This document shows positions 32,605-34,039 of a DNA stretch of 64,000 nucleotides, piece by piece. The stretch lies in NCBI RefSeq assembly GCF_023806085.1, contig NZ_JAMSLX010000001.1, positions 124,001 to 188,000 of the forward strand, written 5' to 3'. How positions within the stretch are numbered: position 1 is the first letter of the stretch; the number at the start of each line of letters is the position of its first letter. The notes under the pieces were generated by a model. It searched no databases and was not told where the DNA came from. It saw nothing but the letters and a program-made list of their open reading frames with translations. This stretch comes from Hephaestia sp. MAHUQ-44 (GTDB taxonomy: Bacteria; Pseudomonadota; Alphaproteobacteria; Sphingomonadales; Sphingomonadaceae). The position numbers were made by a program, and so were the translations under genes.

Positions 32605-32778
32605 ATGGCGAGTCCTTCAAAATCTCCCGTCGCGGGCGGCGCGCTGATCGCGCTCAGCCTCTTCATCGGCATCATCGGCGGCCTCGCCCTCGATCAACCG
32701 ACGCAGGGTTTTCTCGTCGGCCTCGCCGCCGGGATCGCGATGGCGGTCGTGGTCTGGCTGATCGACCGCAAGCGGTAG
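32605..32778 (+). CDS. Small two-helix membrane protein
   Basis: 57 residues: ALIALSLFIGIIGGLALDQ and FLVGLAAGIAMAVVVWLI are two membrane helices separated by a short loop, with a basic C-terminus (DRKR). No family recognised. The ATG at 32605 follows GGCAGGGCGG. It is divergent from tamA and convergent with the S24 repressor gene. Possibly a small stress or envelope protein. Confidence 0.6.
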   Translation: MASPSKSPVAGGALIALSLFIGIIGGLALDQPTQGFLVGLAAGIAMAVVVWLIDRKR

Positions 32779-32820: not shown

Positions 32821-33450
32821 CTATTCCAGCGCCCGTCCCAGCCACACCACGCGCCCCACCAGTTCGGCCCGCCGCGCCGTCTCATCCTCGATCGGCGGAT
32901 AAGCGGGATTATCGCTCCGGATCGCCAGCCCCAGCCCAGCGCGCGCGACACGCTTGACCAGCAGCACACCGTCCAACCGGATGACAAAGATGCGCCCGCG
33001 CGAGGTCACCCGCCGGTCATGGGTATCGACCATGATCTCGTCGCCATCGGCAATCGTCGGCATCATCGACTCGCCCTGCGCGCGGATCAGCGACAATCCC
33101 CCCGGATCGACGCCGAGCGCGCGGATCAGCGCCGGATCGAACACGGTGCCCGCCAGCGCGCGCTCGCCATCGACGATCCCGCCCGGCCCCGCCGAGGCCG
33201 CGACGTCGAGTCGCGGCACCATCACCGCCAGCGGCGCGCGCGCGGGGCCGCCGAGCACCGCCTCATCGACCCGGAACCACGCCGCGAGCGTCGCGCGGTC
33301 GCGCTCGGCCAGCGCGCGCGGCGAACCGCGTGTCACATATTGCTGGAGATAGGCCGGGTTGCGGCCGAGCCGCTGCGATAGCGCCGCATAACTCTCGCCA
33401 TGCAGCGCGATCAGCCGCGCCAGCGCGGCCCGCGGATCGTCCGATTCCAT
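32821..33450 (-). CDS. S24-family (LexA/CI-like) transcriptional repressor
   Basis: 209 residues. The N-terminal helix-turn-helix is over about 10-45 (YAALSQRLGRNPAYLQQYVT). The C-terminal S24 peptidase domain has the catalytic Ser in AQGESMMPTI and Lys in VLLVKRVAR, so it can probably self-cleave on RecA-ssDNA like LexA or CI. Not LexA itself: the HTH and spacing differ. Divergent from two small genes across a 98-bp gap with a LexA-type box and a TAGGA/TCCTA palindrome. Prophage-like repressor or SOS co-regulator. Confidence 0.85.
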   Translation of the reverse strand: MESDDPRAALARLIALHGESYAALSQRLGRNPAYLQQYVTRGSPRALAERDRATLAAWFRVDEAVLGGPARAPLAVMVPRLDVAASAGPGGIVDGERALAGTVFDPALIRALGVDPGGLSLIRAQGESMMPTIADGDEIMVDTHDRRVTSRGRIFVIRLDGVLLVKRVARAGLGLAIRSDNPAYPPIEDETARRAELVGRVVWLGRALE

Positions 33451-33466
33451 GCCGCGATCATAGTCA

Positions 33467-33480
33467 TAGGATTTTTCCTA
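33467..33480. promoter_or_regulatory. TAGGA-TTTT-TCCTA palindrome, candidate operator
   Basis: Inverted repeat 17 bp upstream of the S24 repressor start. Its position suits autoregulation. Inference from symmetry and place only. Confidence 0.45.
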
Positions 33481-33498
33481 GACAAGTTGGAAATGTGA

Positions 33499-33513
33499 GA
33501 ACAAATTGAGAAC
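33499..33513 (+). promoter_or_regulatory. Candidate LexA (SOS) box, GAAC-N7-GAAC
   Basis: GAACAAATTGAGAAC is a perfect GAAC-N7-GAAC direct repeat, equal to GTTC-N7-GTTC on the other strand, the known LexA box of Alphaproteobacteria. The repeat extends to TGAGAACA-N3-TGAGAACA. It sits 36 bp before the small gene at 33549 and 49 bp before the divergent S24 repressor, where it could control both. Confidence 0.65.
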
Positions 33514-33548
33514 ATATGGCGAGTCGGAACGGGGTCTGAAGGATGATG

Positions 33549-33728
33549 ATGCTGAGCAAGATCGAACGGTTTCTGCGGCAAACGGCGATGCCGCCGACCA
33601 AATTCGGGCGGATCGCGGTCAACGATCCGCGGCTGGTCGGCGATATGCGGCGCGGGCGCGAACCGGGGCCGCGCACCATTGCCCGGATCGAAGCCGCGCT
33701 CGATCTGCTGACGGGCGCCGACCAATGA
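33549..33728 (+). CDS. Small basic helix-turn-helix-like protein
   Basis: 59 residues starting LSKIERFLRQTAMPPTKFGR. The arrangement of helices around TKFGRIAVNDPRLVGDMRRG and PGPRTIARIEAAL looks like a compact XRE-type DNA-binding fold, but lacks a clear family match. Three consecutive ATGs occur at 33543, 33546 and 33549; AAGGA favours the last. Its stop overlaps the next start (ATGA). Divergent from the S24 repressor, downstream of the LexA-type box. Confidence 0.65.
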   Translation: MLSKIERFLRQTAMPPTKFGRIAVNDPRLVGDMRRGREPGPRTIARIEAALDLLTGADQ

Positions 33729-34039
33729 GCCGCGGGCCTGACGCAGCGACGCTGCTTACCCGCGCGCTGGCCGCAGCGGCCGCCGCCGATAACGTCGCCT
33801 GCGCGATCACCGGTTCGGACTGGAACCGCTGGGCGAGCGCGACCTTCACCGGCGTGCAGCATCGGCTGACGCTGGCGGGCGCGTTCACTCCCGCGCTCGA
33901 CGATTGGCTGACCACATTGCCCGAGCGCGACTTCGTGCTGCCGGGGCATCTCGTCGCCGATCTCACGATCGTGGCGATGCGCGCTTCCCCCGATCGGATC
34001 GAGGCCGATCTTCAGGCGCTGACGGTCGAGGACTGGTGA
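33725..34039 (+). CDS. Hypothetical protein of a LexA-box operon
   Basis: 104 residues, Ala-rich; contains ITGSDWNRWASATFTGVQHR and a LPERDFVLPGHLVADLTI segment. No signal peptide, membrane helix or recognised motif. Coupled by ATGA to the preceding HTH-like gene, so the two probably act together. Function unknown. Confidence 0.65.
   Translation: MSRGPDAATLLTRALAAAAAADNVACAITGSDWNRWASATFTGVQHRLTLAGAFTPALDDWLTTLPERDFVLPGHLVADLTIVAMRASPDRIEADLQALTVEDW

Follow-up and report, generated by a model that had tools for sequence, protein, structure and literature searches.

The closest described systems to the locus reported here are the lysogeny switches of phages, the tail terminators of phages and GTAs, the RogA-GafYZ regulators, the alphaproteobacterial LexA regulon and the defences that block tail assembly. 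The accessible text of one SOS account gives the Caulobacter LexA motif as GTTCN7GTTC (PMC12700426). In the available portions of a second report, Caulobacter RogA is described as an HTH-S24 protein that represses GTA activators; its S24-like domain is without cleavage residues, it represses gafYZ elsewhere, and GafY is related to DnaA domain IV (PMC9632790). The accessible part of PMC11409702 mentions a terminator gene solely as a member of phage and GTA clusters. Blocking of tail assembly is an established principle of defence, represented, in the portions available to us, by Tab, a prophage gene whose product recognizes the tape measure protein (PMC10884400), and by Tai (PMC11364771).

We analyzed a 64-kb stretch of DNA, called the window throughout, that contains a divergent trio of genes: an S24 repressor on the minus strand and, facing it on the plus strand, a two-gene operon encoding the proteins P0002 and P0003. 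The features of the locus are as follows.

32821-33450, minus strand: S24 (CI/LexA-like) repressor gene, 209 aa, with A87-G88, S128 and K166
33451-33548: intergenic gap of 98 bp between the S24 and HTH genes
33457-33485, minus strand: promoter-like site TTGTCT-17-TATGAT of the S24 gene, by consensus match only
33467-33480, no strand: TAGGA-N4-TCCTA palindrome TAGGATTTTTCCTA, candidate S24 operator
33479-33484, operon side: conserved TAGACA, overlapped by the palindrome
33499-33513, plus strand: LexA-type box GAACAAATTGAGAAC, GAAC-N7-GAAC
33521-33525, no strand: GANTC site (CcrM-type methylation sequence), its central base free
33549-33728, plus strand: P0002, a Cro/lambda-repressor-like HTH protein of 59 aa, by modelled fold
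33725-34039, plus strand: P0003, a 104-aa orphan tail-terminator homologue, by fold model, profile links and tree

A first-pass annotation of this DNA had described a perfect GAAC-N7-GAAC box in the 98-bp gap, a separate TAGGA/TCCTA palindrome near the repressor and a coupled pair of 59- and 104-residue proteins on the plus strand. All three are present in the sequence, and the P0002 stop and P0003 start overlap as ATGA. The conserved GANTC site and the kinship of the 104-residue protein go beyond that annotation. The P0002 frame encodes 59 aa from the ATG at 33549, and 61 aa if the ATG at 33543 is used. Adjoining the S24 gene, at 32605-32778 of the window, lies a frame for a 57-aa small membrane-type protein that has a match in many genus loci and a weak likeness to DUF5957, under the DUF5957 cut-off.

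The trio is widely conserved. By tblastn, P0003 is present in 59 of the 61 genomes of the genus, counting this one, and in 0 of 39 others. A profile search finds it in 108 of 113 family genomes and in 13 of 83 further genomes within the order; of these 13 other-family matches, one (G126) is doubtful, with a stop and an E value of 4.7e-4, and may be spurious. The sampled family is taken as Sphingomonadaceae, judged from the named loci. The P0002 HTH profile matched 106 of the 113 family genomes. Among 80 loci from named genomes (mostly Sphingomonas, also Hephaestia, Sphingobium, Sphingopyxis and Stakelama; 16 of the 80 repeat earlier loci), 77 contain the full divergent trio. The exceptions to the pattern include one locus where the frame has a stop (L042) and two without an HTH match (L257, L274). 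The dN/dS ratios are far under 1 for all three genes: 0.09-0.35 for P0003 (14 of 16 close pairs), 0.12-0.32 for P0002 (14 of 36 pairs) and 0.04-0.41 for the S24 gene (14 of 39 pairs). Alignments A1 to A3 kept 49 of 61, 50 of 59 and 48 of 58 frames, after removal of broken or odd-length frames and some near-duplicates. To judge from these sequences, the trio is a fixed locus of the whole family under purifying selection.

The S24 protein matches Peptidase_S24 (E 2.6e-16), PHROG 4 (transcriptional repressor; 1.6e-31, residues 12-207) and LexA chains in the PDB; at its N-terminus, HTH_38 appears at E 0.09 only, under the cut-off. Among phage records, its best matches are c repressors of Pseudomonas phages at 32.6% identity. 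The A87-G88 bond and the S128/K166 dyad are unchanged in all 48 aligned orthologues, and the earlier description of the repressor as self-cleaving in type is right as far as these residues tell. Elsewhere in the class, six of 26 S24 relatives (L337-L340, L356, L357) lie opposite one or two P0002-like HTH matches, and two of these six have TraL-family conjugation genes downstream of the HTH match. Because six S24 relatives elsewhere face HTH matches, two of them with TraL-family genes, a mobile-element switch may be the origin of the S24-HTH pair. A scan of all 26 loci (L334-L359) detected no terminator beside the S24 relatives, and the seven of them that were read for open reading frames have other neighbours, with TraL-family conjugation genes in two. 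Separately, the HTH gene opposite the S24 relative is a fused double P0002-like gene in L337 and L340, followed there by the TraL-family genes.

The candidate operator is rare in the genome. The TAGGA-N4-TCCTA palindrome occupies the spacer of the S24 gene's promoter-like TTGTCT-17-TATGAT, itself found once against 0.1 expected in shuffles. The perfect palindrome has one copy in the 3.5-Mb genome and none in shuffles, and one-mismatch forms occur at four further genome places. We then counted sites in the gaps of 68 of 69 genus loci (L078, without S24 and HTH, was left out) and 88 of 94 other-genus loci (L171, L231, L257, L268, L274 and L275 lack an S24 or HTH match); L169, L172, L090 and L091 were set aside as second copies or contig edges. 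The exact palindrome is present in 40 of the 68 genus and 44 of the 88 other-genus gaps, a looser form in 61 and 56, and CCTAGACAAG in 57 and 76, respectively.

A second conserved element lies downstream of the operator. GANTC is found there in 66 of 68 genus and 87 of 88 other-genus gaps, as compared with 4-26 of 68 and 7-29 of 88 for control words of like make-up. All four bases occur at its N, and the base after the site is usually G. Within the window, GANTC is depleted about 2.7-fold (122 sites versus 324 expected from shuffles). GANTC is the methylation sequence of CcrM, which is known, with GcrA, from Alphaproteobacteria, and the site sits in the promoter region, as in CcrM-regulated promoters. 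Its conservation points to possible CcrM methylation, or else to the operator of an unnamed factor.

P0003 has no accepted Pfam (PF11367 included), NCBIfam or PHROG match, and no match to phage records at E 0.01. Structure prediction of the 104-residue protein had been proposed in the first-pass annotation as a check, and its AlphaFold2 model (pLDDT 93.8), with an alpha-beta-beta-alpha-beta-beta order, has a terminator fold. Its top VIA match is the R. capsulatus GTA terminator (6tba_4A; Z 11.2, rmsd 2.5, 98 residues, 19% identity); ranks 2-10 are all occupied by chains from phage tails, necks or tail caps, the next matches being Listeria antigen B, the monocin cap, the NF5 neck, the T5 terminator and the DT57C neck, and the first row that is not a phage tail protein is PilO (Z 8.4). 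Foldseek alone returned no clear match for the model.

Profile comparisons add sequence kinship to the fold. Alignment A1 is linked to A4 (E 1.6e-12), A4 to A5 (2.6e-20) and A4 to Rcc01690 (3.6e-8), and the direct link from A1 to A5 is weak (probability 34%, E 4e-4). Comparing P0003 directly with the genome's own GTA terminator revealed no sequence match. Two family orthologues approach PF11367 closely, G112 at 3.9e-5 (over the cut-off) and G164 at 9.4e-5 (just under it), while the four other-family homologues tested match PF11367 at E 1e-7 to 7e-21 and two of those four also match PHROG 176 'tail terminator'. A tree was built from 49 proteins: 12 orphans from the family, 10 from other families and 27 further PF11367 copies. 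It places the 22 orphans together in a single clade (100/100), set among further PF11367 copies of Sphingomonadales; two long branches, one of them the genome's own GTA terminator, come together in this tree, and the placement of both is unsure. Relative to the terminators it was compared with, P0003 is shorter by about 30 residues. It shares their fold in the model and, by these links, their descent, but does not match PF11367 directly. On this modelling and comparative evidence, P0003 is a shortened tail-terminator homologue, which might still form a hexameric, tail-capping ring despite its shorter chain. The identity of the locus is well supported, and we hold it, together with the control architecture, with high confidence.

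Ten of the 13 other-family matches were examined at the level of the locus (L279-L288), G126 being among the three left out. In all ten, an S24 relative is transcribed away from the P0003 homologue at a distance of 526-956 bases, with open frames of unclear standing between the two genes in some. The exact palindrome is present in three and a one-base variant in four more, 50-92 bases upstream of the S24 gene. This pairing of P0003 with the S24 gene across many genera and other families, its translational coupling to the HTH gene and its shortened fold would all suit a regulatory ligand, that is, an antirepressor or co-repressor of the S24 or HTH protein in a self-contained sensor, perhaps with distant targets. 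However, none of the ten other-family pairs has a recognizable HTH gene, and with one perfect operator in the genome no distant S24 target is visible. We consider a ligand role unlikely.

The genome also carries its own GTA-like cluster, at about C37:368-382 kb (read within L297, G000 C37:364001-384000), with a terminase, portal, capsid, connector, its own PF11367 gene, tail tube and Rcc01698_C. P0003 could be a GTA accessory, a damage-specific alternative terminator for that GTA, and the S24 protein would then regulate the GTA in the manner of RogA. The RcGTA terminator is the nearest structural relative of P0003, the clade of orphans sits within further PF11367 copies of Sphingomonadales, and RogA offers a precedent for HTH-S24 control of GTA activators. 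But the GTA-like cluster has a terminator already, and the genome's only perfect operator is at the S24 locus itself. RogA is reported to be without the cleavage residues that are invariant here. Moreover, at least 13 family genomes retain P0003 with no match to either GTA marker (PF11367, PF23666), although diverged GTA genes could escape both profiles; PF13547 (GTA_TIM) matched 0 of 192 and could not serve as a marker. Because it is kept in these genomes, P0003 is not simply a GTA part, and the accessory reading seems to us quite improbable. Outright identity with RogA/GafYZ was also considered and dropped, as both the dyad and the Ala-Gly bond are present here, in contrast to RogA as described. 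Neither P0002 nor P0003 has a Pfam match to a DnaA domain.

We next considered the LexA-type box. GAACAAATTGAGAAC is the sole exact GAAC-N7-GAAC in the window, where shuffles give 1.29 per 64 kb; genome-wide, the pattern has 73 matches as compared with 42 for the reversed pattern. The single box is without statistical weight alone, and its significance comes from position and conservation. The exact box is present in 60 of 68 genus gaps, where eleven scrambled half-sites occur in 0-2 of 68, and in 65 of the 77 full-trio loci from named genomes. The eight genus loci without it (L152 among them) keep GAACA with a degenerate second half. A chance occurrence, which the single site alone would allow, is ruled out by this conservation. 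As positive controls, the same motif lies upstream of the genus lexA in 30 of 30 loci and recA in 27 of 30 (each search matched 61 genomes, with 30 loci each examined). Two overlapping boxes, 11 bases apart, are present at 22 of the 30 genus lexA loci (L092-L120). Within the genome, one LexA-like box, GAACATAGCGAGAAC, occurs three times in identical form (C5:58-72, C17:9754-9768 and C27:5489-5503), one copy being at a contig end, and is possibly part of a repeated SOS-linked element.

In other genera the box changes its place. It lies in the gap in 33 of 88 loci, within the HTH gene, ahead of the terminator gene, in 32 and in neither in 23, and none of the 156 gaps examined combines the two positions; six of the 88 loci have a match on the opposite strand. 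Lack of conservation in orthologous loci had been named in the first-pass annotation as one finding that would refute the proposal. The box withstood this check, although 23 of the 88 other-genus loci are without an exact box. Where the HTH protein contains the peptide EHFMN (33 of 83 loci scanned), all 33 encode it with the identical 15 bases GAACATTTCATGAAC. Given the codon use of the same genes, this choice has a probability of 0.07 per genome, a figure that is not multiplied across lineages, which are not independent; the flanking bases vary. We read GAACATTTCATGAAC as a likely LexA box kept in coding sequence. In the ten other-family loci, the S24-terminator interval has no exact box (0 of 10). 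LexA control was therefore probably added within the family, and by these comparisons it is not universal and does not belong to the ancestral state of the S24-terminator pair.

These positions also bear on whether GAAC-N7-GAAC serves instead as an operator for the S24 or the HTH protein. The box starts 20-25 bases from CCTAGACAAG or its variants in 44 of 58 genus loci scored and is missing from some genomes, both of which would fit an operator of a local protein. However, the same motif marks the genus lexA and recA genes, it resembles the motif given for Caulobacter LexA, and the 32 other-genus boxes far downstream in the HTH gene and the six opposite-strand matches fit poorly with a local operator. 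We judge this reading very unlikely. LexA control of the promoter, by a GTTC/GAAC-N7 direct repeat of the kind that defines the regulon, is the reading we keep.

P0002 is modelled with similar certainty to P0003 (AlphaFold2 pLDDT 93.7). In the PDB its fold is matched by P22 c2 and C proteins (TM about 0.7) and by HigA and HipB; the TM values span about 0.6-0.7, with none of the matches at E <0.001, and we read it as a minimal lambda-repressor-like HTH protein. A P0002-like HTH segment also begins a 457-aa open frame elsewhere in the genome (L298:1569-2942, G000 C38), and G105 and G242 have open frames of the same size. The HigA and HipB antitoxins among these matches, with the gene sizes and the coupling, could suggest an SOS-controlled toxin-antitoxin pair of HTH antitoxin and small toxin; against this, P0003 is a tail-terminator homologue, no toxin family matched, and PADLOC matched no known defence system at the locus. 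We find such a pair hardly credible, and the 'toxin-like' module of the first-pass annotation receives no support. Least probable of all is a decaying prophage remnant kept by chance, to which the phage-type parts and the few loci with a broken frame or missing gene (L042; L257, L274) lend some colour, but which is at odds with P0003 in 108 of 113 family genomes, its dN/dS values and the conserved regulatory sites. Of the earlier term 'prophage remnant', phage ancestry stands, while a local decaying prophage does not, given a locus that is fixed across the family and under purifying selection.

Our preferred reading, which we consider probable though well short of certain, is a domesticated, vertically inherited phage-type switch that carries a lone tail terminator as its cargo, most likely acting on assembling tails. 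In the undamaged cell, LexA on GAAC-N7-GAAC and the S24 repressor on TAGGA-N4-TCCTA would jointly silence the two-gene operon, and the S24 repressor's site would also lie within its own promoter. The two potential layers of DNA-damage control that had been proposed over this small operon are thus supported in sequence, by the LexA box and by a repressor of self-cleaving type. After DNA damage, activated RecA would remove LexA and probably trigger self-cleavage of the S24 repressor. The operon would fire only with both repressors lost, giving a strict damage gate, because LexA and the S24 repressor are both of the RecA-triggered type and would act on one promoter. The Cro-like P0002 would then probably hold the repressor promoter down or limit the burst. 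P0003 would most likely cap or poison tails under assembly, whether of invading phages, of GTAs or of prophages induced at the same time. That a lone terminator is the cargo suggests a target among foreign or prophage tails after SOS induction, when prophages assemble. Conservation, the box, the catalytic residues, the modelled folds, the homology and the single clade of orphans are what the analysis establishes; we infer the pairings of proteins with sites, the RecA-triggered cleavage, the Cro role and the tail interference.

Tail-assembly interference is our favourite function for P0003, but we advance it tentatively. It is possible, if speculative, that the locus as a whole is an SOS-gated anti-phage or anti-GTA device, present family-wide, with a decoy or premature terminator as effector and a box that relocates while the control logic is kept. 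Each part of the locus is of a known kind; what is new to us is their combination, its retention across the family and the box that relocates. Within the literature searched, mostly outside subscription journals and in its accessible text, we found neither an orphan terminator under LexA nor this locus named, and the accessible parts of PMC11150451 and PMC10688885 name neither; the earlier statement that the small operon has not been described by name holds to that extent. If the preferred reading is true, bacteria have retained a single virion-assembly protein, away from its usual context, as a host gene induced by damage, and the locus would provide a host-encoded case of tail-assembly interference that can be put to the test. 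The LexA box, which lies in the promoter in some genera and in exact codons of the gene upstream in others, is a clean natural experiment in how regulatory sites turn over. A caution applies, as orphan tail-gene matches outside prophages can be conserved host functions.

Compared to the known systems, the locus shares some features with each. It has the GAAC-N7-GAAC box in common with the alphaproteobacterial LexA regulon; the accessible text of the SOS account does not mention the P0002-P0003 operon (PMC12700426), and, unlike in the known regulon, the box shifts between promoter and coding sequence. RogA-GafYZ, like this locus, joins an S24-type repressor, of HTH-S24 build in RogA, to a two-gene operon tied to phage-like particles, but the protein here has the Ser/Lys dyad and its candidate operator lies at the locus itself. 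Tab and Tai would act like P0003 if P0003 disturbs tail assembly; in the accessible portions of their reports they are not described as terminator homologues (PMC10884400, PMC11364771), and we claim no kinship with them.

The tail terminators, RcGTA Rcc01690, PF11367 and SPP1 gp17, resemble the modelled P0003 fold over 98 of its 104 residues and are linked to it in sequence via intermediates. Unlike them, P0003 is stand-alone, shorter, outside the tail clusters seen and apparently under LexA and S24 control. The phage lysogeny switches (CI-Cro, and the c repressor and Cro/Ner of transposable phages) have the same divergent arrangement of an S24-type repressor and a small HTH protein with a palindrome in the shared gap, and the c repressors of Pseudomonas phages are the S24 protein's best phage matches. 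Unlike those switches, this locus is a fixed chromosomal one, retained family-wide, with no phage genome seen in its flanks, and it has added a LexA box and carries a single tail gene as its cargo.
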